From Trebouxia sp. TZW2008 (lineage: Eukaryota > Chlorophyta > Trebouxiophyceae > Trebouxiales > Trebouxiaceae): a stretch of DNA of 64,000 nt. A program made the translations under genes and the position numbers. This document shows, piece after piece, positions 134 to 22,609 of this stretch. Location of the stretch: positions 63,870-127,869 of the forward strand of contig BDIU01000242.1 in NCBI GenBank assembly GCA_002118135.1, given 5' to 3'. Numbering within the stretch: position 1 is the stretch's first letter; each line of letters starts with the position of its first letter. Below the pieces are notes generated by a model. That model was not told the origin of the DNA. It did not search any database and saw only the letters and a list, made by a program, of their open reading frames with translations.

Positions 134-3100
134 CTGTTGGATGGGACCAAGGTCAGGCAGCCCATCAAGGGTGATCGTGTCCAGGCTGCCTTGCTGAAAG
201 TTCTGCCCATCGTTCACCATCTGAAAGGGCCCTGCCTCGCCCATTCTGCCGATCAGGGAAATCACGCCATTGGCGGAAGTGCCAGCGCCAGACAAATCGC
301 TGGTCTGCAGTTCAATCTGGTAGCTGCAGTCCACCAGCGGGTAGAATGTGCGCTCAGTTTTGCCATCGCCTTGAGTTGCATCCAGCCAGGCCTGGCATTT
401 GAAGGTGACGGTCTGGTTGGTGATACTGTTGTGCACCACCACTTTGCTCAGGCGCCAGCCAGACTCAATGCCTGCGTACCCAGCAGTGGCTTTGTTGAAG
501 GAGCATTTGGACTGGTCAAAATGTTTGTCAGAATCAGACTGCATTGAAGAGCAGGTTGCCAAGCAACTCCGGCTTGGACATGAGCGTACGCTACAGCATG
601 TGCTGCAATTGATTCAGGCTATTTCTGAACCACACACAGACCACATGTACACATACATGGTGTTTGGACCATTCTGCATGATCAAGCTGCTCCTTGATGC
701 GTCAAGGCTGCGTGACACTGCATCACACCAGGTGCAATACGCATGAAAGGACAGCATCAAGCATCTATCCTTTGTTTGCCATCCAGAAGGAATTTGATCT
801 TTGCAGCGCACACAGTGGGGACCCATGCACATGGCAAACAGTGCAACAGAGTGATCAAAGAGTCGTTGCACACCGTCATCATTATGTCCAATCTGGATAA
901 AAAGCATGCGCCCCACATCGGCGCCCTGCACAGTGCAGGTCTGGGACATGCCCCTCACAAAAGCCCCTCCTGATGGGTTCAGCCCCTGCCGGCCAGTGTC
1001 ACCTTCGTTCCCATGCACCACAATGTGCGCACTGCAGTCTGTGCCAGCGCCTGGCAGGTCGCTGGTGTGGACTTGGACTGTGTAGTCAGCAATGTTGCAT
1101 GCGATCGGTGCATCTGGTCGGGTAAAGACAGCGGCAACTGGCGGCTGAGGGTCTGAGGAGCCTTGCATGGGCATGTTGGCAGATGATTCTGGCAAGGCGT
1201 CACTAATCTGCATGCAGTGTCAACAGCAGCTGTGAACGGCAACACTGTTTAGTGATTCTGCTGAGGCGCCCTTAGCCTGCATAAGTGTGCAACAGCAGCT
1301 GAGAACGGCAACGCTGTTTAGTGATTCTGCTGAGGCGCCACTAATCTGCAAGTGTGTGCAACAGCAGCTGAGGAAAAACAATCCTTACAATTTTTCTGCT
1401 AAGGCGCCATTAGGCTGCACATATTTGCAAGAGCAGCTGAGAAAGGCAATGCTTCATAGTGAATCTGCCAAGGCGTCACTAGTCTGCATGCAGTATCAAC
1501 AGTACCTGAGGAAAGGCAATGCCAAACGACAGGCAAATCATACTCAGCTGACATTGATGGCAAACAGACAGCAACACCTTAGAGCCAAGGTGAGTGAGGA
1601 GACAGGGCTGCACATGCATTGCCGTGGCGCACAGCAAATGCATCCCGTCAATTTGTCAGCAGTGGTGGGCTTGACAACTATAGTGTCACAGAAGGACAGT
1701 GCATCCGGCTATTTAGTGCTCATTGCAAAGAAAACGTTGCTGCTGCTGACACCCCTTCAGCAATCCAGAACAATATTGGACAACACAGGCAACACCCCGA
1801 AGTTGCAAAACAACAGGACGCACAGACAGTCAAGCAAACCAGATAAACGATCAGACCATCTTCAAAGCATCCGTGCTTGCTGACTCAATGAGAAGGACAG
1901 GAGCAGGTGATATGGTGGCTTTTATTTTTCAGACAGTCAGCTCATACTGTTGGAGTGCTTGCTGCCTGCGTTCAGGGCTCGCGGTCGGCAAACTTTGACA
2001 GCACAGACGCTGCAGCTTCAGCGACAGCAGCAGCCAGCCACAGATGCTGTAAAGCCTTGTAACAAATTGCTGCGGTCCTACCCATATGCATTGATTTTGG
2101 CATTAGGTAATGTCTCCGGACACTCTTTTGCCCAAGGTATAAGAGAGCAGGTGATATTGGGGATTGATCTATAGGGTTTTTCTGTGGCACATGCAATCAG
2201 CCTTTATGGCTACCGAAACCAATCAAACTATCATCAGTGCTCTCTTTAGTTATGCAGCAGTACTTCCAGCAAATTACCTTCAGGTTCACAGTGTGGACGC
2301 CATCGTCTCCCAGCCATGCTGAGCAGAAAAAGATGTATAGCAGGCCTGTGCCTTCATCGGTCACCTCCACTCTGTCAAGGTGCCACCTGTCACCTGGAAA
2401 GGAGGGCCTGTAACCCACAATGAGCTGGGTTAGGGGACCCAGGTGCTCAGCAGTGTGTACTGGAAATGCTTCTGCCTGCAATGGCATGACGCAGCTGTAA
2501 AACTTTCGTGGGTTGTCATGGTCAGTCAAATGCATCAGTGCTTTTGGCAGAACTCACTCACGGAAAGTTTTGCACTAAGGTGATCAGCAGTGTGCTTTGG
2601 AATGGCAGGTATCAAATTTCATTCTAGAGTTCTGAAGGCAAATGTATCCTGGATACAAAATCTCAAGATTCTGATCACGCTAAGATTCAGCGGTCAAAGC
2701 CAGGCAACTATCATCTGTGAAGAGTTTTGTCCAATCTACACAGGCTACATAGCACCAAAACCCAGACTTGACTGCTGATATGCTTGCACTGACAAGCACC
2801 TGCCCCTCTCAAGTGGGGCTGAAATGCTTGCAGTGACAGATACCTGGCCGCTTTCAGTCGAGCTTTACAGCAACGCTTTATAGGAACAATCATGTACTGC
2901 CTTGCACTAAAAAGTACCTGGCCTCTTTCAAAGGCAAGTGGGGCTGAGGGCAAATCCTGAGGGCCGCTGGCATGCGCCAGCCCCTGCAGGTCCACCCACA
3001 CCCCTCCGCCTGTGCCCGCACCCAGCACATTGCTTGTGCATACCACTACCTGATCAACATGACACAGGTCATGAGCACACAGTAAAGACCGCTATGCTAT

Positions 3101-6100
3101 ATCACATGCATGCAAAACAGGTCTCAGAGCTACATGGAACATGCCACAACCAGTTGCCACTACAAGCAAATGCTCTTGTCAGACAACTTGTGCGCTTGAC
3201 TCCTGCTGCATGCACATATAGTGCAACCAATCCCATTGGCTACGCTCTCTGCAGCACACCATCTCAAACTTCATCTGACACCTGCAAATCATCTTGCACC
3301 TTGTAATTAGCAATCTTACCATGTAATTACCAGTAATGCCACTGTCTGTAGCATCATGTTCTCCTGCAGCCTGATGAGGCGCTGCAGCCAGAGCCTTCCA
3401 TACTTCTTCCTCCTCAGGCTCAGGTGCAGTAACTGGTATTGGTTTTGGCGATTTGTGCCCCAATTGTAACTTGACCTTGATGCTGCTGCTTCTGTCCAGC
3501 CACTGAGGACATGGGAAGAAGTAAACCCTGCCAGAGGTTTTCTCTGTAACCTGAATGCTTTGCAGGTGCCATAGACCTTGTGTGCCCTGCAGCATACACA
3601 GCCTCATTGTTGTTGTCAGCTGTAGGAGTGAGTGAGCCATGGTGGGCGCCTCACTGCAGAGCAAGCAGCACTGGTGACTGCTAAAAAGCAGGGCTGATCA
3701 AAGAGTTTCAGTGCCCAAAGATAAGGGAAGAAGCTATTGCCGCACTTGAGCTTGAAACTGTTATCCAAACCATTGTGCCTGCAGCTGAGATGTTGCCTTG
3801 ATGTATTATAGCCGCACAAAACGTGCCAGACAAGCCATTGAAAAGATAGGGTTCATGGATTTGCTGTTTGAGGTCGTGCTTGCAAATGTAGCCCACAGAT
3901 GACAACAGGGCTAGGACCATTGAGTGTATGCATAGGCATTTCTGGCAGGGTGTCGCATGGCTCTCACAGGCTCTTCTATGGTGCGTGCAACTCAAAAAGA
4001 TGCAGCACGCACCGCTGAGGGTTCAAGCCAGAGCATCAACTGGTTCAACTCTCCAACATCCAAAGCACTGCAGTCAAAGGCAGACAGGCCACCGCTCTGT
4101 GCAATGCCAAACTGCAGAGGGGAGGTGACTCCATCCAAGCCATGCATTTGCATCCAGACTGGCATAGTTGCTTCAGCTGAATCTGCCGCTGATGCTGCAG
4201 TGTCAAACACTACCTACAGAGGCAGATATCCCTCAGCTCCTCAACAGCCACAGCACTGCAGTCAAGGGCAGACAGGCAACTGCTGTGTGCAATGCCAAAC
4301 TGCAGAGGGGCATACTTGCTTCAGCTGACATTCTTGCTTCAGCTGAATCCACTGCTCATGCTGCAGTGTCAAACACCACCTGCAAATGCAGCAACCCTTG
4401 ACATCAGCTGACAATGCGACAGCTGCTGCAATTTCAAATGCAGATGCAGCGATGCTTCAAACATCTGAGGCATGACTTCAACGCTCAGGAACTTGACACA
4501 TGTTCCATACATTCTCATGATGCAAAATCCAATGTATGCCGTCAAGCGCAAGTCCATTTGCCAGTTTTCAGGAGCACATGGGCATAAGGCCTGTTCTGGC
4601 ATGAATTTCACTCCCAGCTCATAAAGGAAGCAAGGGGGTCCTTCGTTCAGGGGCAAGCCTTCAGGACTGTTGTGTACAAGCACTGCACAGCTGATCTGCG
4701 TGTCGACTGCTGAGATTGTTGCGCACAAAGCAACTGCTTATGATTGATGCGACTTTGCACAGGGACACCTGGCAGCTAGTCAAGGACCTGCTCAACAGGA
4801 ATGTGTGCTTGTAGACCTAGTGATCAGTCATTGAAGGCTGCCAACTCTTGGCATGGCCTGCAGGGAAGAGCCAAAATGCTCACCAAGCAAATGCTGGCAG
4901 TTGATGACAGTCTCAAAAAACCCACCTGGTAGTCTGTCATGGGCAACTGCTGACACTTGGGATGACCTGCAGGGAACAGCTCAACGCTCGTATCTCCCTT
5001 CTGCCGTCCAAGCCATCTGTCACAAGGGAAGCTCCAAGTCCCGGAAGTGGTGAGATTGGTCACCTCCACCAGATGCACATGCCACGCTGTGCTGGGCATC
5101 TGTCACACCACATCAAGCAACATCACAACATGTTCGGCAGTCATCATTGGACTGCGCATCACTCAACCTTGTGCAAGCGGGACTGAAAGTCACTGTGAGA
5201 CAGCATCAGCTTGCCAATGAAATGTTCTGTACATCATACATCGCAGCCCTCCCTAAAAGTACACTGTAAAAGATGAAGTCACCAAGGCCCAGCTTTATGG
5301 CATCAGGTAGATAGAGTCTGCAAGCACATGCTTGTGGCCCCTGCCTGTCCTGTCAAGCTGTAGTCTGAACAGCTATGAGTCAGTGAGAATAAGTCAGACC
5401 AAAATCATTTGCTCACTGTCGCTAGTCATCATACTCAGAATCAGCATCAGTACGCTATGCCATCAACATTGAGCATACTTGCCACAAATGTAACCCTTGG
5501 TGTGAAGTCTGCGCAATCTTTCATGTCAACTTATAGTGGCCTTGCATTTACAGCCAAGACAAATGCTTTGAGACACAGATATCATGAAAGCATGGTCCCT
5601 TTTGCATCCTGCACGTGGTGACTTGGCATTCAGAAGGACAATTGTGCATACCGCATCCTGCAGACCCAAAGTCAACCTCTGCAGGGAGCCCACATCTTGC
5701 ATGTCGTCTGTTGTCCAGGTGTGCTGAGATCCACTGGTGAATGTAGTGTCATCTTGACGTAGCAGCATAATGGTCTGGCTGCTGATGTCCAAGCCATGCA
5801 GAATGGCAGAGGCTCTGACATGTGCTGTTGACTGCAGAATGTCTGATGTGTGCACCAAGATGCTGTATGTGGCCATGCTCCCTGCAGCAATTACTTGTCA
5901 AAACAACGGCCAGTTTTGAGAAAAAGCAGCTCGTGGTGAGTTTCCTGGCTGCTAGTGTCTAAGCTGCGCTGAATGGCAGAGCCTCTTACGTGTGCTGTGG
6001 ACTGAAGGATGTCTGATGCATGCCTTGTGTGCTGTACTCGGTTTTGGTCATTGCAGCTTTTGCCAACCTTGCAAAAAGGAAGTCACAAGGACGACCAACT

Positions 6101-9100
6101 TTGCCAAAAAAAAACCAAAAGCAGTAGTGCTTCCAGAGAGATTCGAACTCTCGATCTCTCGCTTACTAAGCGAGCGCCTTAGCCAACTTGGCCATGGAAG
6201 CGCTGCTTGCTGATCGGACAGGTGCCGATGAGAGAAGGGACAACAGAATTGGGCAAACTAGCTATTTCTGCAACATATCAACGGTGCAATGCTCTCTGAC
6301 TTCGTTCTCAGGCTTAAAGGAATAAATCACTGTGCAATCAAGAAATCAGCATTTGCTGAGCTGGCACGTGTTGTGCATGCAAATCTGCCTACATTGTCAT
6401 CTTGAGTTTTCACAACCATGCAAATCCATGGCAACCTCACAGACGCACCTGGCTTGAACACAACCTGGTTCCCGTTGCTTCTGCACAGCCAAGCCTGGTT
6501 AAAGAAGAGCCACTTGTGCCCTGTCTGGCATTGCACTATGCGCACCATCTCTGGCAACCAGTCAGGGTGCGCGCCTTTGCCATTGTGACTCAGCGTGATG
6601 TGAGTCAAGCCATCATACATTGGAGCCCTGACTGAGAATGTGTCGATGCTGCCTGGAGCAAAGGCAGTGGCTGCAGCCTGTAGAGCCAAGGGCTTTGATT
6701 CACCTGCATACCACAAGCTTTTCCTTTGAGTGCTCAGACTACTTAAGAAATTTGCTTGCTCGCTTGTCATGCATTATGCGAACAGTGACTGCATGTAACT
6801 ACGGTCTTGATGCAACTTCAAGCTTGAGAAAGAGGCTTATTAACAGTCAGCATTTGCGTAGGCACAGGATGTGAGATTCTCCCGGTACTCCTTCAGGGTA
6901 TAGGGGTAATACGGGGTCATTCTAAGAGGCAGTACTGCAGGGACCATGCATATGTCGGACATCTGACAACAGCTGACAGTGCACAATGATATGGATAAAT
7001 CAGCTCACAGGTGAAATGAAATCAAGGTACATACTCAGCAGCAATACTGACCTTGATCACCGCACATCACCAGGAGGACATCAGCGTCAGTGCCGGCAAC
7101 TGGCACATTTGCAGTGTGCACCTCAACACTGTAGTCTGTGAGGCCGTCAGTCACTGGAGCAGTCTCAGGCTTGTCATTCTGTGCCTGTACAGTCAGCAAG
7201 GATTGTGTTACCATCCTGTCATGAGTTGTTGGGTTTGCTGACGGTGCCGTGGTACACAACCTAGCAGCATGCTGAACAGCATTCACAGACAGATGCTGTG
7301 CTGTTGTCTTTTAGACTGAAGCAGTTGCTGATGACAGTGTTGAGCGTCATTACTTGTAGCAAGCAGTGGACATCAGGCACAGCAGAAATTGGCAACGTGA
7401 GCTGCAGAGAGACCAAACGGTCATGACATACGTAATGAAATACAGGTGTTGCAGGAACTTGGCTCAGTGCCATTGCTGGTATTTCAACTGATTGTCTCAA
7501 AACACAGCACAGCATTTCAGAGCCAGCAAGCTGCAGATGACACCCTGTTGTTACGGACAGTTCCGTGCCAACTGGGGCAACAACTTTGTTTGTGCAGGGA
7601 ACTCAACGCTTGCTATAATTGCGGTTTCTGACCTGTATGGTCTTGCCACAGCTTACATCAAGCACTCAATCAAGTACTGAAGTCTGTCACCTTGAGTGTG
7701 CGTTCAGTTTTGCCATCACCCTGAGCAGAGTCCAGCCAGCGGCTACAGGGGAAGTAGTAAAGCCTGCCACTAGGGAGGTGGGTGACCTCCACCAGGTCCA
7801 GGTGCCAGCCAGGCTTTGCACCCTTGTTGTCATGGCCTGCACAGAAAACGCAGCACATGTTATTGAGGCAGAGTTTCAAGGATGAAGAAACACAAACTGC
7901 TCAGATGGTTGAGACCAATTTCAGGAATGCAAGAAATTCTTCTTGTTTTAAAGTGCGCCCTTAGGCTAACGCATTTGTTTGCACCCATTATGCCCATTGC
8001 CAACAGTTACACAGCTCAAATTGTGCTCAGAATGTTTGGGCACACCTATAGCGTCCATAGCTCAGAGTGCCACAGCTGTGATTCAATGAACACAATGAAG
8101 TCATGGGTTTGTCCAAGCATACCTATTGTAATGGAGTGCAAGTCACCCAGCTCGGCTGCCTGCACCTCAAAGCTGTCGACTGCACCCCGCCCGAAAGCAG
8201 GGGGGTCTGCATTGGGGGACCCCAGCAGGTCACAGCGTGGGCTCACACCCTGCTCTCCACCTAAGATCACGTACACAGAGGCATCTGTGCCGGCACCCCT
8301 GATGTCACTGCTGTGCACAACCACCTGCAGTTTTAAATTTCAGATGTAAACGGTATTTGTGTAATGGAGTCCCTTGCAAACCGTGTTCTGATTTTGTGAT
8401 CAACAGACGTGACAGGCAAGCAAACACTGGTGGGCTGCCTATTTGAGTGCATGGTTGTGCTGTGTTGATGCTGTGCTGTGCTGCGCTGAGATGCCCGTTT
8501 AAGTACTTCACCCTGACTGGTATGACACTGACAGCTAGAAGTACAATGCAAAGACTTGTCGTCTGTCATGCAGCATGCTTGAGCTGCATGAAACTGCTTA
8601 CCATGACTTTCATCAAGACAGCAGCAATAAGCACTTTGTGCATGAAAGCTCCGATTAACTGCAGGCTGTGTTTGTTTGCAAGGCTTGTGGACTCAAACCT
8701 CAAGGCACAAACCAGTCAATGCTGTCAGTTGCAGTTGGCACTGATACAGATTTTCCTGCGCATGCTAAGCATGCTGAGGGCGTTCTCACCTGGTAGGTGA
8801 CTAGTCTCTGAGGGGTGCGGGGGTCTGCTTGCTGGGCCACCAGGGTTACGCATGAGCCCTGTTCCTTGCTCAACCACTGCTCACAGGGGAAGAACCACCT
8901 GCATAGCCAATGCAATATCTTCAAGTCACAATTGACAGCAGTCACACAGCATGCACAGCCATTATTTTGTTTGCTACTTCAGCAATGAGCTTTGGTCACA
9001 AAGAAGGACCACCCATATCATCAATGAGACATGTGGCACCTTCCGATCAGACTTGTCAGCAGTCCATAGGCAATGGACAGCCATCATGCCATCTGCAAAT

Positions 9101-12100
9101 GCTCTGAAGGGGGAGGTGAAGGGGGAGGTGAAGGGGGAGGGGCAAGTGGAAGGGGGAGAAGGGAGGGTCTTCAGAAAGTTTGCAAGGTCACAGCTGAGTT
9201 AGCAACACATCAGAAGGACGCCAAACAATCAACAAGTAACTGACCTCTCTTTAGTTGACTCATCATCCACAATGACTAGGCTCAGGTGCCAGTCTGTCTG
9301 AGCATGGGAGCCAGTGTGCCAGATCTGAAGCTCCTGTAGCTGTCCTAGATGCCTCAGCTGCAAGCTGAAGATGTCAACGTTCCCTCTGGCAAATGACTTT
9401 AGACTGCTGTTGGTTAGCTGTTGTGGTCCACTGACACCTCGATCTCCTGCATTGCAGCTGCAAATAGTTATGCCCTGTCAAGGTTACGTGATGATACAGT
9501 GGATTTTGTCATGGGCATGAGCACACCATGACCAACAGTATATTCTTGGTGACATCTAGAAAGTACTGTGTTGCCATGATAGGAGCAAAATGTCTAGACT
9601 GCTGATTACAGTCATGGGGGGTTGCTTATACTGAGACAGATTGTATGGCAGATGCAGTATTGCTAGCATCAATAGCTCATGAAGGGGTTGCGTGTTTGCC
9701 TCATCATATCATCATGCAAAGATTCGGTCTGCTGCTACAGCCGAGTCATGATGGTCTACATACAGGTGAGCAGACACAAAGCGCAAAGGTTGCAGGGTGT
9801 TGCGGCAAATATAGCTGCGCTCATCTGCAAACTCGTCTTCTTGCAACATTCTGGAAAGAAACGTTTGAAGGAAGCTGAATGCCCTTGTGCAATGCGCATA
9901 GCAGGGTCATGGAACCTAACTAGCCAGCAATGATTTTGAGGATGTGCTCGCCTGTAATGTCAATGTAAACGTCTGCGTCTGTGCCAGCATTTCTGACATC
10001 TGAGGTGATGACAGAGACCTTGTAGTGATGGAAGGGCAGGCGAGGATCCTTTCTGCTTGCTGGCAGAACAACTTGCCTGACATTATCCTTGCCGAGCCAC
10101 CTGTCCAGCAACATCATTGCTGGTCAGACTCTATGGCAAGTTCACATGCTCAAGATTCACCATCAGAGATTGAAGCAGTCTGAGATGCTGTTGGAGCACC
10201 GGCGGGGTTATGTTTGCTTGCTTGCAGGACAACCTCTCTGATATCATGTTTGCACAGCTACCTGTGCAGCAACATCATTGCTGGTCAGACTTGAAGGCAA
10301 GCACACATGCTCTGAATCCACCATGGAAGCTTTGAGGCAGTGTGAGATGCTATTGAAGCATACGCAAGGGTCCTCTTTGCACGCTTGCAGGGTGACCTCC
10401 TGACATTGTCCTTGCCCAGCCGCCTGTGCAACAACATCACTGCTGATCCAGCTTGCTGGCGTTTACACTTTGTTCCCCTGCTCCCTCAATCATGAGAGTC
10501 CTAAGCACTTTGACAGGCTATACTTTCTTCATCTGCAAGACGGTATAGTGCAGTATGCATTGCAAGATGGAACTTGAGCACTCATGTTACTCATGTAGGA
10601 GCCATTTGAAGTTTTAACAGCTAGGAAAAGGCCTGACAAGCTCCAGTGACAATGTCAAGTTACTGCATGCTGCAAGTAAGGCTGCCGCTGCACAAAATTT
10701 GCACAGCATATTGTCAGACACATTCATGCGCCACAGACAGCATGTGGAACTAGCCATGCGAGTGACGGCATGGAAAGCACGGCAAGCACTATTGATCTGC
10801 AAGGCATGGGCGGTACGCCCTATCTACCACATGCAGAGGTTCTTTTTTCACTTGCTGTTGGCAGCATCAACAGCATGTCCAGCCTGCAACAGATGGCAGA
10901 AACGCATACCTGCCACATGCAAAGAAGACCGTCTCCTGCAGGATTGGATCTTGCACTGCCACCAGGTCACACAGCCAAGGCCCTTGGCTGATGGCCAGAG
11001 TCAGCTGCTGTAAGGAACCCACATGAGGCACATGCAGCACAGTCTCATACACCTGCAGACAACAGCATAACTTTTGAGTCACTCAGCCTTGCAATTGACA
11101 CTTTGGTTATGACCAGCTTGAAGCAAAGGTGTGGCATGATGGCCAGAGTCAACTGCTGTAAGGAACCCAGATGAAGCACACGCAGAGTAGACTCACACAC
11201 CTGCAGCCACCAGGCTACAGATTGAAGGTTACTATGGCCGAGCAACCCAGGAGCTTTGTGTGAAAGGACTCTTAATCATCTAAGGTATGGTAGGGATAAC
11301 AGCCTGAGCATTTGCAAGCCTTGCTGCTGACGCCATCATGTTCTATCCCGCAATAGTGGGTGACAGGATGTAACATGGCAAACTGATATCAGCAACGTCA
11401 ACCAGTAAGAAGCTGTACCGTCAGGAAAGCAGACCATGGTGAAATGGAAAAGTGTGTAAGGGTACAGCTACCAATGCTTATTTTCATGCCATGCATGCCA
11501 GAATGACAGCCCACCTTGCTGCAAAGTGAAGAACTACACAAACAGAAAAGCCAGATAAGACTCATGTTGCTGGGCATCACACTTGAAAGTCTGTGCTTCC
11601 ACAAGCAGCAGCCACATCTTGCAATAACACACACACAGGTTCAAGTCTCACCTGCCCATGGCTAAACGCTTCATCATGGTTAGGCTTGAGCTGCTGCATG
11701 CCAGTGCTACCTTCCTCGCCCTTCAGATCTATACTCACTCTGCCAGGCACTCCTGCCCCTCTGCAATTGCTTGTGTGCAGCTGAACGAGGTAATCTGCCA
11801 TGACCAATGCAGGTGCCTGCTCTTCTTCTTTTTGCCTAGGCTCCTTGACCTCTTGTGCACCTGCAAGTGCAGACAAAACTCCTAAGCTCTATTCACTGAA
11901 ATTTCCTGGTGAGGGATGATTCCTGAAGGTGACGTGAGTGTGGGAGGAAATGTTGCCATTGAACCTCACAAAGCCAACACCTGGAAAGGTGTATGACTGC
12001 TGAGATTGAGGAGAAAGGGTCACATGCTGTTACATCTAAATGTCAATCTTTGCTACTGCAAGCTCACACGAAGACAGCCTGCATTACAAAGCTTGAGTGG

Positions 12101-15100
12101 CTGTATTGTCACGTAAACTAAACTAAACTAATCTAATGCTAATCTAATGCTAATCTAATGCTATGTATGCTTTGGGATGCCTTGCTGAAGAGAGTGCACA
12201 CTGAAAGAATAAGACAGCAGCAAGACTTGCAGCATGCAGCAAGGTAATTGCCTTTTGTAATGTTCGGAGCTTATGAGCATGTTGCATCTGGTAAAGCTTT
12301 GTGCTGAAACAGTGGTGAGACATCATTTCTGTTGTAGTCAAGGCAAAAGGTGATGGTGAAACAGTGAGATGTCATTGCAGTTGTAAACATGGCAGAAGGC
12401 ATGTGTTGCCAGGCATAGCCCTCACCTGGGTGTGCTGGGAGATCTCTGCTGATAGCACCATCATCTCTAGCAGAGGACAGCCAACAACTGCACTTGAAAA
12501 CGGCTTGAGTACCTGTTTCCTTCTCTGTGATAACCACCTGCATCATACCTGCTTGCTAAGCCTGAGGTCTACTAGGCTATGTAGGCTTCAGGACGAAAGC
12601 CCAATAGATGATGTTCAAAAGTGCTGTCAGCTGTACCACATGAATGTTAATGCATCACCTGCATTGCTTGTCAAAGGTTCTCAGTCAATGAGGCACCAAA
12701 CAACAAGACCGGTGGTTGAGCCAAGATGCAGTCTACAGAAAAAGTTGCTGCGAGGAAGCATGTATCTGTGCATTTCATCTCAGAGCCATTCGCTGTGAGC
12801 TTCTGCATATGCATGCCTCACACGCACCACTAGCACAAGACCAGAGCTTCCAAGGTTTTGACAAGATGATTGAGTGAGTACTGCGCATCAGCTGGTGCAT
12901 CTTGCCCAGATGCCAGTCAGGGTTATCGTTGTTGCTCATCACACACACACACACAAGAGATCAACAAAGGGCAACACACAAAAGACCAACAAAGGGCAAT
13001 GTCAAATCTTGAGGCAAGTTGCTGACGCACAAAGTGGCTAACCATGTAATACTGTACCTTTTCCAGATGCCAGTCAGGGTGAGTTCCTGCATTGTTGTGG
13101 CTCACACGCAGCATCTGCATTTGACCCACTCCTCTGCAGGCAAACTGGAAAACATCCACAGCCCCTCTTGCAAATGCTTCATCTCCCTGCAAGCAGGATG
13201 GTGATCCATAACCAATCTTTGGGATCAAACACACTTGGGCGATAAAGATACCCAAAAATATTGGCACTGGAACATAGGGATACTATCAGAGTATGTAGGG
13301 GCTTGATAGACATGTTGGGCATAGGGATGCATGCCAAGATTGGCTGTTTGCTGCAGGCATGCTGCAGGTTGCAGAAGATGCATTGCTCGGGACTGACACA
13401 TTTCCTGTGTTCATCAAATGCCAGGGACAGTGCAGGTGACAGCATTGTGCTGACACATTGTCTTTGGTATACCTGGGACTTTCGCTATGTACACCATGTG
13501 CAGGGAGAGACAATTTCCATCATGCACATGTCTGAAAGCATGCTGTGTCATTCCAAAGGTCGAGATCATGACACAGGGTGTGGCATCACCATGATGCAGA
13601 ACAGGGAGGATGCTTACAGCCAAATTTTGAGGTCCACTGTCGCCCAAATCCCCAAACAGCATTAAGCTGACGTCAGCATCAGTTCCAGCGCCTCTGATAT
13701 CACTGGTGAACACCTCAGCTGTGTAGTGCATGTCTTGGTCATTGGAAGCTTGCACTCCAGGGAACAAGTCCCTCTCAATCAGCCCATCATCTTGGTCTCT
13801 GGCCAGCCAGCGCCCGCAGCTGAAGTAGTACTTGATGCCTGCAACATCACATGGGCTGCAGGTGAACCACCGTCGCTGATATCACTGGCATACGCCTCAG
13901 CTGTGCAATACATGTCTTGGTCATGGAAAGCTTGCAGTTCACGGCGCAAGTCTTCCTCGATCAGACCATATTCCTGATCTCTGGCCAGCCACTGTCCAAA
14001 GCTAACGTAGTACTTGATGAGCCTGCAGTATCACATGGGCTGCATGTGAACCACTGCCACCAATGCCGTTGGTGTACACCTCAGCTGTAGTGCATGTCTT
14101 TGTTGAGGAGGCTTGCACTTGAGGGCACAAATCCTTCTCAACTTGGCCATCGTCTTGGTCTCTGGCCAGCCACCGCCCGCAGCTGAAGTAGCAATTGATG
14201 CTGGCAACATCACACGCACTGCATGTCAGAAGCTGAGGTCACTGGCCAGTCTACACCTCCGCTGAGTAGTGCTTGTCTTGATCATGCAAGGCTTGCACCC
14301 TAGGAAACAAGTCCCTTTCAATCAGCCCATCATCTTGATCTCTGGTTAAACAGCGCCCGCAGCTCAAGTAGTATTGGACGCCTGCAACATTGCATCCACA
14401 ATGTGGCAAGCAGACTGACTGTTGCTGATTATGGGTCATAGTTACTGTTGACCGTAATTGATTCAGATAGCGGCGTAAAGCAATGACAAGAAAGAGTGAT
14501 GTGTACATGGGGTCCAAATCGCTTGTCTGCTGATGTCATCGAAGCAGCCTGCAAGTTGCTTGCTCCTGCAAGTCATATTGTCTAAACAAATGAGTGTTGG
14601 TATAGCACCTGCACTTCAACCCACAGACTCTGGTTGCCAAGACCCATGAAGCAAACAGGACTTGTGTCAACAATGTTTGTTTACAGCACTATGCCTGGCT
14701 GAAGATCAGATCAGGCCGACGGCATGCGTTCTAATCAGCTGCTTGTTTCTTTGCACTCCATGTATGCCTTTGATGCAAAATCTACCTGACTACAGGCACC
14801 AAAAAGAAATTGTTCCTCACTGCTATGATTGCAAGGCAGTGAAGCTGGGAACACCTGACTCTTCATCAGTCAGCTCTGCACAGTCCAAATGCCACCCAGG
14901 GTTTGCGCCCCTATTGTTGTGCCCTACTGTCAATTTGGTAATTTGGCCTAGGGTTGGCAGCTCCATCCTGAAGGTGCCCTGACCCCCACGCAGGAAATCT
15001 TCAGGGCTTGAGGACAACTTCATGCGAGGGCTTTTGCCCTGCTTCCCATGTATGGTGACAAATATGTCAGCATCTGTGCCAGCCGATGGCTTGTCGCTGG

Positions 15101-18100
15101 TGCATAGCAGTAAGCTGTACCATTGCAGAGGCGTCTTATCCCTGCACAGCACAGACTTCAGGGTCAGCTGGTGTGCTGGTCTTCATGCACGGGTTCCCCC
15201 TTATTGCCAACGTAGTGTCAGGAACACATCAGCATCTGTGCCAGCTGATGGGTTGTCGCTGATATACAGCACTAACTTGTACCATTGCAGAGGCGTCTTG
15301 TCACTGCACAGCACCCACATCAGGGTCAGCTGTTGCAGTGGTGTTCATGCAAGAGCCTTTCTTTGTTGCCCATGTGTTGTTGCACATTTAGCAGAATCTG
15401 TACTGGCTGCTGGCTTTTCACTGGCGCACCGCAGCAGGCTATATCACTGTAGCAGCAGCTTGTCTCTGCGAAGCACGCAGATTGACATCAGCTGTTTATT
15501 TGAGGGCTTTTCCTTGATTGCTCCTGTGAGGTCACAAACACACTAGCATGTGTGCCAGCTGATGGCTTTGTGTTGGTGCAATGCAGCAGGCTATGACTCT
15601 ATAGAGTACTGTACACTGTAGAGGCACCTTTTCGCTGCGCGGCAACTAGACTTATGTCAGCTTTGCAAGTTGCTTTGAGTGCAAGGGTCTTTCACCTTGC
15701 TCAATTCAGCAGAATTGCATCAGATGATGAACTGCATCTGTGCCACCTGGTTGGTCCTTGCTCATACGTGACAGCAGTTGATACAGTGTTACCTGCTGAG
15801 GAAGAGATCCCGTTCAGCTAAGCCGTCCCCCTGCTGCAGGTCAAACCACTGCTCACAGCAGAATTGCCACTGCTGGCCTGAGGGCACATGCATGATGGTG
15901 AGGGCTTCTAGGTGCCAGCCTGGGGCCTGCCCTGATGAGTCATGCCCCACAGTCACATGAGTCAAGTCTCCCAGCTCTTGATCTTCCACAAAGAAGGTGT
16001 CTATGCTGGCCCTGTGCATACAAAAATGCTTTCCAAAAGAGATTCAAGGAATATTGCTCAGTGCACTTTGTGCTTGAGCTCTCATGCATATTTTGAGGTT
16101 GTGAACCCATCTCAGGACATACTGCGCTGCTATATAGTGTAATTCTGTAGGGTGGTCAGTGACTCATTCAAAGGAATTGCTAAGAGCATAAAGTGAGTGT
16201 ATGCATCAAAGCCAAGTCAGGTTATGTTTCTGGTTGAATGCTGAGCCTTCAGACGTGTCAGAACCCTCAGAAAAGGAGTGTTACTTCCTTCCAAAGCTGA
16301 GGTGCAGAATTGCACGAGCCACGACGTATCAGACACTGTCCTATGTTGCAAGAGCCATTCTTCATCCACACAGTGGTGCTTCAAGACAGGTACAGTTCAT
16401 ACCGGTCAAAGTTGTGAGGACCTCCACCCAGCTGGTGCTTGGCTCCTGAGCGTTGCTGCCCATGCATTGTCAAGTGCACATGGGCGCTTGTCCCTGCACC
16501 CCTGACATCGCTAGTTCTGAAGGTCAGCTGATATTGGACGCCAGAGGGGCGCTTGCCTCTGTAAACGTCTCTGCTGAGGGCTCTGCAGAGCAAGTCAAAC
16601 TCTGTCTTTCTGTATACAGACAAACCTAATGATGAAGTCAGAGACAACGATTTGCAATCTGGCAAGCATGTGAAGCGAAGCTGAGGGACAAGCAGATAAG
16701 CATGCTGTGATGTGAAGGTTGACAACGCTGGAGCATGACCATGCTGCGTCAAGTATGATGCATCCCTTCAACAGTCAGCGTATAATGTTGCAAGCAATGG
16801 TGCAAAGCAGGTCAGGTAGGTGACATGTAAGTTCACGATCAAAGGCTGGATGATCAGGCTAGGTCAATGATCAGTGGCTGCGGTTGCTGTTTGTGTTGGC
16901 GTATGCAAATCAGCATGCAGTATGACTGTGCATCTGAAAGTAGGCTGTAGGTATCATAGGCACGGGATGGCAATGCACGGCGATGCTGTCTTACCCATCA
17001 TCTTCATCCTTTGCCAGCCAACGGCCACAGTGAAAGTATGTCCACTGGTCTGTACCCTGCAAACCAAGTAAACACCAGTCACATGTTGGATGCAAGCGAG
17101 CTGCTGCACGGTCACATTTGCCTGCCTGTGTCATTTGAGGAGAAGATCAAACACTGCAAACCTTTGTGATAGAGGGTGTGACCTGTACAGAGGCGTGGCT
17201 GAGCTAATGACAGCGCAGCTTACAACATGAGCATGTCAGTAGGGTGACAACCACGCAACATGACTGTTGGTGGCAGCTCGTCGCATGAGCAATGCATGTC
17301 CTGCTGCAGACTTGACCCCATGTTGCCTGCATTATGACTACAATGTCCAGCACGGCAACTGAATTTGGCACTGTTTGGCTGTCGTACGGCAATGAAAGCA
17401 CACCTTGAATTGCAGAGCTGCAACCATCTTTTGCCATTCAGAATCTTTGCAACAAATTTTGTAAGCACACGATATGCTTTAGATGCACATGGTGTTTGCA
17501 AGCAATCTACAGTGCAAAGCCCTTGCAAAGACACTCCTATGCCTTTCAGCATGTACCAGAGAGCTGCCAAGTGCTGCACCAGGCTGCCATCTTGATGTCA
17601 AGGCAAGAAGGGGTACGACTTTGAAGGGCAAAGCACTACCTTCTGCCTTGCCCTTACTTCCTCCAGGAACCAGGCAGGCTGGCTGCCTTCATTGCCATGA
17701 GACACACGCACCATCACTAACTTTCCTAGCTGCTGACACCGGATCTGCAGCACACTTCATGAGCATGAGCAATGAGCTTCTCAAACGCCTCTGCTGCAGT
17801 CAAACGCAAGACTGGCATGCATCTAGGGAAGGTCAAGTGATGCCTGTTACTGGGGAGCTACATTTTGCGCCTGACTGTAGTGTGACTTGGCTGCAGGCCA
17901 TACAGTACTGTTTGGCTTGACTGCTCAAGACCAGCTTGTTTTGCTGGGTAAAAGAGGCTCTATGCACACTCAAGCTCAGCTGCAGATGAACATGACCTGT
18001 TGATGATGCTAGTGTCTGAAGCTGGATCTGCTAGGCACAATTGTATAGCTTCTGTGGCAGAAATTCTAGCTGCAATGATACTTGCTGACGCTGTAAGTTC

Positions 18101-21100
18101 TGTGGTGTTGAGCACAGCATTGAAGTAAGCCTGAGGCTGCAATTCTGTTGACTTTCTCTTCTGGCATAAACTCCTGTAATGAAGCTTTTCCAGCAACAAG
18201 ACAGCAGATACAAAGTTGCAAAATTGTAGCATTCTTTTGAGTGCTAAGTGTATGATGTGCCTGTGAAGGCACCACTTTGCAGGAGTGTTGAAGCTGAAGT
18301 CAGGCCGGTGAACTTTTGCCTGCCTTCAATCAATTAATCAATCGGTAAACTTTACAGTCTGGGGCGAGCCAGATTTGACTCATCAGACTTCCTGGCTTAA
18401 AAGCACAGGTGAATGTGTCTGGAAACGAAAGGCAGCTGTCCAGTGTTTGCCTCTTCCTTGTCAAAAGTCAGTAGCACCTGCCAAGATGATGCAATGTTGC
18501 AGACAGGCCTGGACAACACAATGATGGCAAAATTATGAGCATGCAATAGTAACTAGTCTACCTCAAAGGCATCGCGCTGACCAGCACCAAATGGGATAGG
18601 CTGGAATGGTCCCTGCTCGAGTTAACGATGGCATTTGTGTCACAGCAACTAGACGACCTGTTTCAGCGGACCGATCTTTCTTCATAAAAGAGTTTGCAGT
18701 AGCATTAACTTGCCTCAAACGCATCGCACTGACCAGGACCAAATGGGACCGGCTGGAATAGTCCATGCTCAAGACAATGATGGCATTTGTGTCACAGCAA
18801 GTTCACAACCTGTTTCAACAGACAGTTCTTTCTTTACAATCTTTACAAAGGACTTTGTAGTAGCATTACCTCAAAGGCATCACACTGACCAGCGCCAAAT
18901 GGGACAGGCTGGAATGGTCCCTGTTCAAGGCAGTGAGTTCCTGAGCTTGTGGCAGGCGTCATGCCTTCGCCACCCCATAGCTCCAAAGCCACCTGAGCGC
19001 TTGTGCCAGCTCCCTGGGAGCAGCAACAATCACAATAAGTGCATGGTGCATTCTTGGCCACACAGGCTGCATATACATGGATGCGCAGACTCAAGCCATT
19101 TGGCAAAGAAATACCAGATGTGGTTCGCATGCATGCACCAAGTGCCCAGGGCAAAAGCCAACACGAAAAGCTACAGCAGGCAATGCAAATACAATCTGAG
19201 GTGTGGTATGATACAATTCTGCAGTTGGTGCGGAACAACGTGCCGTGCGGCCCATTTGGTAGAAGTCTGCAGAGTACCCCAGTGGTTAGCCAGATCAGCC
19301 ATGGGTGTGTGATGAATGCTGCCATGGCATTACTTGTGAAACTGTGCATTGTGGGGCTGTGCCAATACCTTGCATGACCCCGTGTCCAGTTCCAGCTCGT
19401 AAGTCACATACTCCACTGACGGTCTGTGCCATGACTGTTCTTCTGCCAGCAGAAGTTGCTGCCTGATTGGGGGCGAGGCGCTTGGTTCTGGGCCTGGCAG
19501 GGCACTTGCAAAGGCCTGTTCTTGGAAGCCCTCAGAGATTTGGCTGGTCTGAGTGGCAAGGGGCATCATGACTGGGGCTGTGGCAAGCGCATGAGAATCT
19601 GGAGCGCCATGCATGCTTTGTGATCTGCAACAATGCGTTTGTTGTGATCACGGTATAAACCGCTCATCAGCATAGCAGCATCTGCTCACTCATGTTTTGG
19701 TGGCCAGATGGGCATGCCTGATATGTGCAATGAGTATGAGTGATCAGCTTCTGGATATGCAGGATTGTGATGCTGTGATGAATGGTGTGTGTTGACATGC
19801 AACACTGCAAAGTGCAGTCCTGCATGCCTATGTGCAACTGTGTTAGTCAGTCGCCTGCATGAAAGCTCATGCTTGATTCATAATTATAAAGAGGCCAAAA
19901 GCCTGCTGTTGCTGTGTTTGTAACATGTTATGCACCCAGATGGAGGTAGGGACGCTGCTGCAAGTCTGCAAGGTCCCTGTGCGTTCAGACTCACGCTCAA
20001 CATGCAACAGACCAAAAGGTCAAAAATCTGCACCTGCTGTGTTTGCAATACCCGGATGCTCAAACGACTGCAGTGACACACGTGTTGAAAAATCCGTAGT
20101 CTGCATGCAGTGCAGCTGCAATGTTCTGGAATTTTTTAATGCTCACACCATGACACTGGTAGAGCTAAGATCATGGAGCCAGTAAGCAACAAAGACACAG
20201 GCAAAGCTAGAACATGAACCAAAGGTCACAGTGGTCAAGCCAAACAGCAAATGGCAAAAATGGTCAAGCCAACAAGTGAGGTAGTGCGCAAACGTCAAAA
20301 GGCAGCAGTGGTCCGGAAGCGAAGGGCGAGAATGGTGATGCCAAAAGGCAAAATAATGAGCGAATCCGGCCGGGATCGAACCGACGACCTTTGGATCCGA
20401 AGTCCAACGCGCTATCCACTGCGCTACGGATCCGGGTAGTCAATTTGGCAAATGACATGCCGACTTGGCAATTTCGGTATGATAGAAATCCCAAATGTAA
20501 GTGGCAAATGACGGCCGCAGTGACATCATGATACTGTTGAATGGAAGGAACTGCTCTGTGCGGTCTGCCTGATTAGTTGATGATGTGCTTGTGGGCTACA
20601 CAGTATGCAAGATGAAGGGTCTTTCGCTGTGTGGTATGCATGCTATTTGCTGACCTGTTTATTGTGGCTGGTGGACTTGATGACATAGCCTGCTGCCTGG
20701 TCATGTCATCTAAGCTTTGTCGCAAGGCAGCATTCTCCTGAAGCAGGTGCTGCTGGCTGTGTATCCAGGAGGCTTCCAAATTTCTGGCCCTGATGCTGCG
20801 GCCAGTGAACTTGCTGCAGTGTACCCAGGTCTGTGTGATGCGCTCCACCCACAGCTGCATCAAAGTGACAACACAGCTTGAGTTACATTTGCTGGATGTC
20901 AGCATGCTCTTGGAAAGCTGTAATGCATGGTTTATGAAGCTGATCCATATGGTCATATGTTGTTGTCATCACAGAGACGTGTGTGACACAAATGCAGTCA
21001 GCAGCATGGACAAGAGCAATACACTCATGGGAAGTTGAAATCAAAAACAAGCTTTGCATCTGTCAAGCAGGCACAGAACTGCTCCCAATGCTGTAAGGCC

Positions 21101-21941
21101 TACCTGTGCTTCTGCTGCCGTGCTTGCTGCCATCAAATGCGTGTGCGTGCCACATTGGACGCTGAAAACGCATGCATGCCGCTTTGCTGTTAGCTCCGGC
21201 AGCGATGGTCTGTCCACCTGCCTGCAAAGACGAAGTCTGACATCACATATGGCATCAGAAACCGCAAGGTGTATAGCATGCCTCAAAACAAGCATGACAG
21301 GAGTCACAACTGTATTGAGCATACATCTGATGCCCTGGCCAGGCTGGTGTTTTGCATTGTTTCAATAGCTGCATGCACTGAAGCAAGCACAGCAAAGCAG
21401 GGCTCATGATCTGATGCACATACACCCATGCACCCATGATGTATGCAGTGATTTGTTGTCATGTTGTAATGCACCTGTCTTCAATCACAGTCACGCCAAT
21501 CTGAGGTCCATAGCCTCGCGGCAAGGCTCTGACTGGTATGCGATCCAAGGGTATATAGCGAACATCATCAACCTTGCCTGGCTCCTCAGCATAGCACAAG
21601 CGATCATCCAGCAGATAAAACTGCAAACATATGCCTGTCAGCCCTCAGAGTCAGCTGTAGCACTACATGTGTTGCAAGAACACTTGAGCAGACTCGCTCA
21701 CCCATCTCCTGCTCCAGGTCGGGTGCGGGCCGTTGCCGTGCTGTTTGAGCAACCAACCAGAGTGCCGAACCAGTTCTAGAAATTGAGCTTTCTGTACGAC
21801 CTGTCGCACTTCCTGCGTCGGCCATCGGTAACTGTATGGCGACAGCGGTGAGCCTGGTATGTTAGTCTCTGATGGCTTCTGCTGCACAGGAATACGCTTG
21901 CTAGGGCTGTTGCTGATGTGTTTGTGAGGTGTAGCTGGCAT
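134..21941 (-). CDS. PH domain + at least 13 PLAT domains, LOXHD1-like giant protein (C-terminus outside window)
   Basis: Thirty-one exons join without a stop or phase clash and give 1,976 codons: 21702-21941, 21475-21620, 21104-21221, 20655-20854, 19369-19624, 18870-19013, 17640-17744, 16995-17056, 16403-16582, 15793-16011, 14855-15141, 13618-13838, 13058-13186, 12426-12537, 11652-11860, 10910-11052, 9952-10100, 9245-9446, 8790-8898, 8123-8324, 7691-7836, 7052-7271, 6449-6703, 5652-5881, 4926-5099, 4013-4213, 3320-3586, 2918-3049, 2278-2475, 874-1207, 134-471. The donor at 133 shows that it continues left. The start ATG at 21941 precedes a PH domain. PLAT repeats follow, each with a T/S-D-x-x-GAGT entry strand, a W-H-L strand and a C-x-x-W-L exit strand. 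PLAT domains are beta-sandwiches that bind lipid or protein; LOXHD1 has 15 in animals. A membrane-tethered scaffold is inferred. Introns are about 73% of the span and full of exon-fragment repeats. Individual exon ends may be off by a few bases, but the single-gene reading is well supported. Confidence 0.85.
1193..1545. repeat. 69-bp minisatellite at the PLAT12 exon acceptor
   Basis: About five diverged copies of a 68-69 bp unit, recognisable by AGGCGYCACTARTCTGC followed by CAACAGCAGCTGAG. The first copy contains the real acceptor of exon 30 (boundary at 1207), so the unit is built from the intron end plus the exon start. The period is a multiple of three, which is why an antisense frame stays open through it. 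Confidence 0.85.
4216..4390 (-). pseudogene. Broken tandem copy of PLAT10 exon 26
   Basis: The minus strand repeats the exon 26 acceptor and start (CAG|GTGGTGTTTGACACTGCAGC) 166 bp upstream of the real one. The copy then hits an in-frame TGA and lacks the middle of the exon. The tail encodes LSALDCSAVAVEEL against LSAFDCSALDVGEL in the real exon. It is an exon duplicate that can no longer be spliced productively. Confidence 0.75.
4826..4900 (-). repeat. Partial copy of the 3' end of exon 25
   Basis: The stretch with GCATGGCCTGCAGGGAAGAGC repeats GGATGACCTGCAGGGAACAGC of exon 25, 106 bp away, with the surrounding bases also similar. It lies in the intron after exon 25. Confidence 0.6.
5935..6056 (-). 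repeat. Partial copy of the 5' part of exon 24
   Basis: This stretch resembles 5765-5890, which is the acceptor and entry strand of PLAT9, at an offset of about 168 bp. Shared blocks include AATGGCAGAG and GATGTCTGATG. It lies between the tRNA-Thr gene and exon 24. Confidence 0.65.
6128..6201 (-). tRNA. tRNA-Thr (AGT)
   Basis: A 74-nt cloverleaf on the minus strand. Acceptor GCTTCCA pairs with TGGAAGC. The D arm is GCC..GGC. The anticodon stem CTCGC/GCGAG holds loop TTAGTAA (anticodon AGT), and the T arm is GAGAG-TTCGAAT-CTCTC. There is no intron and no encoded CCA. A run of nine T on the minus strand about 15 nt downstream is a good Pol III terminator. The gene lies in the intron between exons 23 and 24 of the PH-PLAT gene, in the same orientation. 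Confidence 0.95.
9106..9168 (+). repeat. G-rich purine repeat (GAAGGGGGAGGT unit)
   Basis: Three near-perfect copies of a 12-bp unit are followed by more G-runs, almost pure purine on the plus strand. It has enough G-tracts for a quadruplex. In the PH-PLAT transcript it reads as a C/U-rich tract inside an intron. Confidence 0.8.
10120..10470 (-). repeat. Two further copies of the 5' end of exon 17
   Basis: The block around the exon 17 acceptor (10060-10135) recurs near 10220-10302 and 10385-10460, a period of about 165 bp. The blocks share CTGTGCARCAACATCA and TGACATTGTCCTTGC-type sequence. Only the first copy continues into a PLAT entry strand. Confidence 0.75.
11100..11213 (-). repeat. Second copy of PLAT5 exon 16 (5' half)
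   Basis: The minus strand encodes VCESTLRVLHLGSLQQLTLA directly after a good acceptor. Exon 16 has VYETVLHVPHVGSLQQLTLA 155 bp downstream. The second half differs and I see no donor in the matching place, so this is likely a decoy or decayed exon. Confidence 0.7.
12113..12165 (+). repeat. Short tandem repeats (AAACT and TAATCTAATGC units)
   Basis: A few 5-bp units are followed by three exact 11-bp units, in the intron between exons 14 and 15. An ordinary microsatellite-type repeat. Confidence 0.85.
12897..12940 (-). repeat. Partial copy of the 3' end of exon 13
   Basis: CAGATGCCAGTCAGGG and the bases after it repeat the DWHLEK-coding end and donor of exon 13 (13058-13110) at a distance of 155 bp. 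Confidence 0.55.
13841..14400 (-). repeat. Three extra copies of exon 12
   Basis: Exon 12 (13618-13838) encodes CGRWLARDQDDGLIERDL, and similar frames recur upstream with a period near 180 bp. Copy 2 gives FGQWLARDQEYGLIEEDL and copy 4 gives CGRCLTRDQDDGLIERDL. Copy 3 gives CGRWLARDQDDG but has small indels after it. Copy 4 has a good acceptor and could splice to exon 11 in phase, but it reaches a stop just after its GAG|GTGTAG end. The exon nearest the next PLAT is taken as functional because it alone continues into TSDIRGAGTD. Confidence 0.8.
15175..15640 (-). repeat. Three extra copies of the 5' half of exon 11
   Basis: The acceptor, DKTPLQWY and the following PSAGTDAD stretch of exon 11 recur about every 162-165 bp. 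Copy 2 keeps DKTPLQWYKLVLYISDNPSA but frameshifts after it. Copies 3 and 4 are weaker. The array produces a long but meaningless antisense frame. Confidence 0.8.
18558..18790 (-). repeat. Two extra copies of the 3' end of exon 6
   Basis: The PFGAGQ-DAFE-coding end of exon 6 with its donor recurs 152 and 306 bp downstream in the intron. The donors are GAG|GTAATG (exon 6), GAG|GCAAGT (copy 2, a GC type) and GAG|GTAGAC (copy 3), so the array offers three competing 5' splice sites. Confidence 0.75.
20361..20433 (-). tRNA. tRNA-Arg (TCG)
   Basis: A 73-nt cloverleaf on the minus strand. Acceptor GGATCCG pairs with CGGATTC (one G-T). The D arm is GCGC..GCGC. The anticodon stem TTGGA/TCCAA holds loop CTTCGGA (anticodon TCG), and the T arm is GTCGG-TTCGATC-CCGGC with a perfect B box. 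There is no intron and no encoded CCA, and short T4 runs follow downstream. It lies in the roughly 1-kb intron between exons 4 and 5 of the PH-PLAT gene, in the same orientation. Confidence 0.95.
20655..21941 (-). other. PH domain region of the PH-PLAT protein (exons 1-4)
   Basis: Exon 1 ends in G-W-L-L-K-Q plus R-R-W. Exon 2 opens F-Y-L-L-D-D-R-L-C-Y. Exon 3 carries C-V-F-S-V followed by A-A-E-A-Q, and exon 4 opens L-W-V-E-R-I. In order these are the first strands, the middle strands and the C-terminal helix with the invariant Trp of a pleckstrin-homology fold, at about residues 60-180. Exon 4 then runs into a short coiled coil (LLQENAALRQSLDD) and a Ser/Pro-rich linker that splices into exon 5. 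PH domains bind phosphoinositides or proteins; which applies here is not visible. The first 55 residues are basic and Ser/Pro-rich, with no signal peptide. Confidence 0.8.
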
Positions 21942-22609
21942 GCTCCTTTCTGCTTTGCAACGACATGCAAGATCTTCAGCACGACAGCAGCTGTACTGTT
22001 TATCTCATGAAAGCACGGCACGGGAGCCTGCACCTGCGGCGATGTGAGGTTTCGGCAACAACAAGCAAGGTCTTTGTTCAGTTCTGAGACTTTAACTGAG
22101 ACTCATGCTGTGAGTCATATCACGCCACGAGGTGCAGGGAGCTCTGACAGTGTTGAATTCACCCTGTCAATTGACTGACACCGGGGCTCGAAAGCATCAG
22201 ACGTTGTGACTTTGTTGCATGAAGCAGACACGGCTATGCTGCAATTGTGACAGGCAAGTGAAATTTTGAGGTTCCTGGGCCCAGGCATGGTGTTGACGTT
22301 TTAGAGGCATTTGCCTGCAGCAATTGCAATGGGAACGCAGGCTGCTTTGAAAGGTCAAGATTGTGTCAAAAGCAAGTCTGTCTTTGAGATTGCTTTTTCA
22401 GCGTCAGAGCTAAGCCTGCAAGCTTGAAAAGCTATTTTTTGTGTGCCATATGCAGGAATCATCATGCAGTCTGTGTTTGCAGCATCAAGCCTTGCTCACG
22501 GCTGTAACAGCCATGCAATGCTTATGCGAGAGCATCAGCGCGTGCTTCCTGCAGCACAAACTCATTAGCATGGCAGCAGCCAAATGAAATTGCCCTGCGT
22601 GTCCACAAA
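21942..22609. promoter_or_regulatory. Divergent intergenic region between PH-PLAT and the FAM210-like gene
   Basis: A 668-bp gap between two start codons pointing apart, so it should hold both promoters. I see no coding exon, no tRNA and no clear TATA box. Confidence 0.5.

Follow-up and report, generated by a model that had tools for sequence, protein, structure and literature searches.

The locus described here raises the question of whether a single green-algal gene can join a PH domain to a long tandem array of PLAT units, how such a gene would relate to animal LOXHD1 and what its product could do. A preliminary description of the window (the whole 64,000-nucleotide stretch of DNA that was analysed, positions 63870-127869 of a contig within the 68.5-Mb genome of Trebouxia sp. 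TZW2008) proposed one gene of 31 exons and 1,976 codons between 21941 and 134, with a PH head followed by at least 13 PLAT domains.

The present analysis identified a PH-polyPLAT gene of 38 exons on the minus strand that encodes 2,430 aa and overruns the left edge of the window by 4.1 kb. This model was built on genomic DNA by a splice-aware profile search, its exon joints were checked by hand and one of them was corrected against the relative P0001. The exons do join from 21941 to 134 without a phase break, as initially described, but this portion comprises 32 exons and 1,948 codons rather than 31 and 1,976, and position 134 proved not to be the end of the gene:

ATG 21941 to stop at window coordinate -4107, minus strand: whole gene (splice-aware model)
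134..21941, minus strand: part of the gene inside the window, exons 1-32 of 38 (splice-aware model)

Introns are bounded by GT-AG in 35 of 37 cases and by GC-AG in the two others, and their median length is 446 nt. A start at 21941 fits, since an in-frame stop lies upstream of this ATG and a FAM210-like ORF (22508-23074; Pfam 27.1 bits for a cut-off of 26) lies beyond it on the opposite strand. As a chance control, the search was repeated on altered versions of the sequence: compared with 3,245 bits for the real strand, the opposite strand yielded 24, the reversed sequence 0, and three shuffled sequences 0, 0 and 0.8. This control is partly circular, because both the profile and the splice scores had been trained on the real strand; an independent test of the domain array is provided by the curated Pfam scores. 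Within the array, the least certain splice choices concern exon 26 (its GC donor) and exon 27 (its start), and the first half of PLAT10 depends on both. No Pfam profile matches the tail (252 aa) above its cut-off; the tail is basic and probably disordered, and its exons 37-38 were modelled from the open frame and splice signals alone. Neither a signal peptide nor a membrane span was recognised by eye in the protein. The exon 2/3 border, at first placed at 21495 / 21217, was moved to agree with P0001, a protein of Trebouxia sp. C0005. The Pfam scores given below for PLAT 1, 3, 5, 9, 10 and 14 and the main search for relatives come from the older 2,422-aa model, and the N-terminal search for relatives used the corrected one (first 2,178 aa).

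All 14 PLAT units score above the PF01477 cut-off of 23 bits (range 34.3-77.7), which bears out the initial count of at least 13. The window contains twelve complete units and the first part of the 13th, which the left edge interrupts; PLAT14 and the tail lie beyond this edge:

16564..19401, minus strand: PLAT 1 (Pfam 50.2 bits)
15804..16533, minus strand: PLAT 2 (Pfam 54.8 bits)
13765..15119, minus strand: PLAT 3 (Pfam 60.9 bits)
12439..13725, minus strand: PLAT 4 (Pfam 66.9 bits)
10064..11792, minus strand: PLAT 5 (Pfam 44.6 bits)
8838..10024, minus strand: PLAT 6 (Pfam 77.7 bits)
7694..8795, minus strand: PLAT 7 (Pfam 74.7 bits)
6453..7133, minus strand: PLAT 8 (Pfam 44.7 bits)
4977..5867, minus strand: PLAT 9, divergent (Pfam 38.3 bits)
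3467..4596, minus strand: PLAT 10, divergent (Pfam 34.3 bits, profile 49-113 of 117; N-terminal half unmatched)
2287..3325, minus strand: PLAT 11 (Pfam 41.6 bits)
344..1084, minus strand: PLAT 12 (Pfam 63.7 bits)
134..322, minus strand: PLAT 13, first part (Pfam 63.6 bits for the whole unit; remainder beyond the left edge)
beyond the window's left edge, minus strand: PLAT 14 (Pfam 43.1 bits)

The best PDB match of PLAT4 is polycystin-1 (E 2e-15), and lipoxygenase chains were also matched. A separate single PLAT exon (66 bits) was found at C254:68408-68728; it is the only PLAT match listed in the genome outside the window's gene, a count that is a lower bound.

The PH head is also present, exons 1-4 containing a match to PF00169 of 46.7 bits (E 5e-12, cut-off 25.1, profile 1-102 of 105), so that its absence from these exons, which would have undone the proposed architecture, is excluded:

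21941-21702, 21620-21475, 21221-21104, 20854-20655, minus strand: exons 1-4, which contain the PH domain (model)
20831..21770, minus strand: PH domain, aa 58-176 (PF00169)
20684..20776, minus strand: coiled-coil-like stretch after the PH domain, aa 195-225 (12-protein family alignment, judged by eye)

This domain is the only Pfam match in the N-terminal 239 aa, and its best PDB matches, which cover its first half, are the PH domains of cytohesin-2 and -3 (E 2e-6). The stretch that follows it is similar in the relatives (alignment of 12 family proteins). Classical phosphoinositide-binding PH domains of the cytohesin type carry the basic motif K-Xn-(K/R)-X-R; the Arg and Lys positions of the cytohesin-3 domain compared here are R284 and K282. 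Within the 12-protein alignment, the first-strand Lys is kept in all seven rows that reach its position. The Arg aligned with R284 is kept in seven of eight rows, Volvox being the one without it (P0004 was left out of this count, its sequence being cut at that point). The residue aligned with K282 is basic in six of eight rows and Ser in the two others, the window gene and C0005. The window gene therefore has the first K and the final R of the motif, with Ser as its middle residue. Because of this Ser and of the missing Arg in Volvox, phosphoinositide binding by this PH domain is uncertain.

This architecture is not unique to the gene: the same domain order was found in chlorophyte proteins of Chlorella, Micractinium, Volvox, Bryopsis and Trebouxia sp. 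C0005, which are deposited in databases either unnamed or under the name LOXHD1. A search with the full protein retrieved 743 proteins at E 1e-5 among 7,984 candidates scored and, among the best 120 of these 743, PF00169 and PLAT occur together in at least three: P0001, P0005 (Volvox reticuliferus) and P0029 (Bryopsis sp. KO-2023). A search with the N-terminal 240 aa retrieved five proteins, all with PH and PLAT domains: P0001, P0121 (Micractinium tetrahymenae), P0122 (Chlorella sorokiniana), P0123 and P0124. This second search missed Volvox and Bryopsis, which indicates its limited reach, and the number of PH + PLAT proteins is a lower bound. Four volvocine predictions (P0003, P0004, P0007 and P0009) start late, with the later portion of the PH region still present.

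The closest protein among the matches listed is P0001, of Trebouxia sp. C0005 (chlorophyte, Trebouxiales; 1,343 aa), which is 64% identical to the product of the window gene over PH + PLAT1-8. It has in common with it the PH domain, the stretch after it and the first PLAT, but lacks the last PLAT and ends after PLAT8. The proteins of Chlorella, Micractinium, Volvox and Bryopsis have in common with it the PH head, the following stretch and both the first and the last PLAT, but differ in PLAT number: in a 17-protein set, there are 14 units in the window gene, 15 in Bryopsis, 17 in Volvox and in C. incerta, seven in Chlorella and in Micractinium, and eight in P0001. In a tree of the units, the first PLATs of the window gene, Volvox, Bryopsis and Chlorella form one clade (support 0.99), and the last PLATs of these four form another (1.0). 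Since these two units group across four algae, this is, as judged from sequence comparison, a core-chlorophyte family that has been conserved, its members having both ends (PH + PLAT1, last PLAT) in common and varying in the number of middle units; the window gene has both the PH head and the orthologous first and last PLATs.

The order of the units was compared by a co-linearity test, in which aligned PLAT units (those below 30 bits being dropped) were matched in order and the match was compared with that obtained when the order of one array was shuffled. It was applied to 148 units from 10 proteins and to 238 units from 17 proteins. Algal arrays were co-linear in all four pairs of the smaller set (z 3.8-6.9) and reached z of at least 2 in 21 of the 28 pairs of the larger one (range 0.3-10.2). 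Six of the seven low pairs involve P0124 (0.3-1.6 in six of its seven pairs) and the other is P0001-Micractinium (1.7). No published description of a PH + poly-PLAT protein was found in open-licence PubMed Central papers. The relatives are known as deposited proteins, a described function for them was not found, and the combination of PH, coiled coil and poly-PLAT is a conserved core-chlorophyte architecture that is undescribed in the papers searched.

We consider it probable that the locus holds one gene for a cytohesin-like PH domain, a coiled coil, 14 PLAT/LH2 units and a tail, that it belongs to this conserved family and that its product would be a phosphoinositide-docked elongated scaffold, with the ciliary base as its likeliest site where cilia are present. 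PH and PLAT domains are general membrane modules, and a membrane-docked elongated scaffold is therefore the natural reading. Beyond the gene structure, domains, conservation and low co-linearity with LOXHD1 obtained from the analysis, we infer lipid binding, a rod shape and a site: (i) the PH domain would dock the protein to a phosphoinositide-bearing membrane, (ii) the coiled coil would pair chains, (iii) the PLAT array would form a long rod binding lipids and partner proteins, and (iv) this rod would link the membrane to the cytoskeleton. If one site had to be named for species with cilia, it would be the base of the cilium.

The ciliary base is suggested by two observations. Firstly, in the parts of the sources that were available, two lipoxygenase-homology proteins, POC2 and MOT51, belong to the Chlamydomonas transition zone: both are components of it (PMC6970386), POC2 localizes to it (PMC6215392), and POC2 is Cre10.g436000, termed "polycystin-related" (PMC5430608); neither protein was found in the available part of PMC6070942. 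Secondly, among the matches listed, the poly-PLAT proteins of chlorophycean algae fall into two types, one with a PH head and one with a WD40 head, and Edaphochlamys debaryana has both (P0003 and P0014). The WD40-headed proteins P0006, P0014, P0025 and P0069 resemble the window gene by their tandem PLATs (20 in P0006), but carry a WD40 head instead of PH, with HELP in P0006, P0014 and P0069, and P0006 matches EML1. A HELP/WD40 head of this EML-polyPLAT type is absent from the window gene, whose N-terminal 239 aa match PH only. The array of P0006 has no clear order relative to the others (z of at least 2 in two of eight comparisons with algae and one of seven with animals). POC2 and MOT51 might correspond to the two poly-PLAT types, a tempting pairing; none of the best 120 of the 743 relatives bears the name of C. 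reinhardtii. Cilia are likely in Trebouxia sp. TZW2008 itself, since its genome has dynein MT-domain matches on 11 contigs. Genome searches with PF07162 (B9) and PF03451 (HELP) gave zero matches, and zero in the controls too, and are therefore uninformative, as is the TGTAA motif.

A scaffold of the plasma membrane or of endomembranes, with no special ciliary link, is a serious possibility. The general membrane nature of both modules is in its favour, as is the presence of the family in Chlorella and Micractinium, which to our knowledge are not known to swim; this presence makes a purely ciliary role doubtful. The two proteins of the Chlamydomonas transition-zone proteome (as far as the available parts of the sources go) and the two chlorophycean poly-PLAT types argue against it. 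A bolder scheme, which we regard as improbable, would have green algae evolve, independently of animals, two giant poly-PLAT linkers, one directed to the membrane by its PH head and the other to microtubules by its EML-type head. Together they would tie the ciliary membrane to the axoneme at the transition zone in a Y-link-like manner, and this alga would keep only the membrane-headed one. Should POC2 or MOT51 belong to the family, the function of tandem PLAT arrays at the ciliary base could be studied in a genetically tractable alga, which would be relevant to LOXHD1, the human deafness protein, as well.

The likeness to LOXHD1 put forward in the preliminary description holds for the form of the protein but not clearly for a unit-by-unit line-up. 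LOXHD1 is long, consists mostly of PLAT units in tandem (15 repeats) and is needed for hair-cell mechanotransduction, according to the available part of PMC8051682; taking at least 10 tandem units as characteristic of LOXHD1, the window gene, with 14, has an array of this kind. The arrays of five animals, EUK8 and EUK22 are co-linear among themselves in all 21 pairs (z 4.8-11). In contrast, the alga-animal pairs have a mean z of 0.56 (n = 56, non-independent), with values of at least 2 in nine of 56 and a maximum of 3.2. All 17 units of Lingula and Trichoplax match in order, whereas Volvox and Lingula show no order. For the window gene, z is 3.1 against sea urchin, 2.2 against Trichoplax (two of seven at 2 or more) and -0.8 to 1.6 against the five others. 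Because co-linearity is so low between algae and animals compared with that among animals, an independent algal array appears likelier than orthology with LOXHD1.

It is accordingly unlikely, in our opinion, that the gene is the green-algal orthologue of LOXHD1, derived from one ancestral array, with PH gained in algae or lost in animals; PH is absent from the Pfam domains of the animal proteins among the matches listed. Several observations nevertheless point that way: (i) unit numbers are similar (14-17 in the window gene, Bryopsis, Volvox and C. incerta versus 16-17 in the five animals, for units of at least 30 bits), (ii) algal and animal proteins have long mutual matches, (iii) one clade (0.99) mixes penultimate algal PLATs with animal PLAT13, (iv) the few alga-animal values of 2 or more include the 3.1 and 2.2 of the window gene, which overlap the lower alga-alga values, and (v) Volvox reaches z 2.5 with EUK22 (p 0.002). 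A shared ancestor blurred by time is possible. The name LOXHD1 borne by such algal proteins in databases therefore implies an orthology that the arrays do not clearly back, and long PLAT arrays may have more than one origin.

Independent algal array or not, the reading of the locus as one gene depends on its exon joints. Introns fall mostly inside PLAT units, and most joints are thereby locked. The inter-domain joints are 4|5, 10|11, 14|15, 21|22, 23|24 and 30|31, with 25|26 as a seventh if PLAT10 is taken without its unmatched first half; both 36|37 and 37|38 come after the last PLAT. P0001 spans 4|5, 10|11, 14|15 and 21|22 and stops at 23|24, and in the relatives a single predicted protein runs from PH into the PLAT units across 4|5. 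Support for 23|24, 25|26 and 30|31 is indirect, coming from single proteins of relatives that have both PH and the last PLATs and from the last-PLAT clade (1.0); the tail joints 36|37 and 37|38 are supported by none of the relatives compared. Judging from their source names, the PH + PLAT relatives are products of gene prediction. The weakest points of the single-gene model are thus joint 23|24 and tail exons 37-38.

Two genes, PH + PLAT1-8 (exons 1-23) and PLAT9-14 + tail (exons 24-38), could be imagined instead, separated at this inter-domain joint, the intron of which contains a tRNA-Thr gene, as P0001 terminates within a few residues of it and exon 24 has an ATG just ahead of PLAT9, with an in-frame stop eight codons upstream. 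Such a split is nonetheless highly doubtful, given that Volvox, Bryopsis, Chlorella and Micractinium have PH and the last PLATs within one predicted protein, that PLAT14 groups with the last PLAT of the first three, that the 23|24 splice sites match in phase (donor score 4.0, acceptor score 2.5, from a matrix trained on this gene), that the last residues of P0001 resemble intron read-through, and that a search with the C-terminal half, scoring the best 7,996 word-sharing candidates, gave one match (P0125, 26% identical) and no separate Trebouxia protein of 470-1,496 aa.

The gene also carries other sequences in its introns. Two tRNA genes lie in sense orientation at inter-domain joints, and partial copies of exons lie in introns near the exons concerned:

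6127-6201, minus strand: tRNA-Thr (AGT), in intron 23
20360-20433, minus strand: tRNA-Arg (TCG), in intron 4
4233-4299, 5945-6018, 10364-10421, 11132-11200, 13867-14381, 15229-15592, 18562-18780, -990 to -1144: exon copies, in neighbouring introns

Exons of the gene have 18 off-exon matches, 14 in introns (from nine exons) and four exon-to-exon. After a 34-nt match of exon 25 was dropped, 13 partial copies of eight exons were analysed. They are mostly tandem repeats of about 140-190 bp; ten of the 13 are free of both stops and single-base gaps, and one has a stop. Omega is 0.31, 0.39 and 0.48 between exon and copy, and 0.34, 0.47 and 0.61 between copies, at kappa 1, 2 and 4, respectively (kappa being near 3.4). 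Alternative exons were considered for these copies, but the omega values fit decaying copies of a constrained exon and give no ground for assigning them a function. In addition, a 69-bp tandem array (4.9 copies, 1184-1519) lies in the intron before exon 31 and reaches the start of this exon. Outside the gene, further tandem arrays with periods of 109, 198 and 136 bp occur at 49016-49294, 53538-54081 and 59619-60094, respectively, and tandem copying may be a frequent local event in this genome. Finally, an open frame at 27113-27382 on the plus strand encodes degenerate FG-type repeats (FGSSQPA), as in a nucleoporin-like protein.
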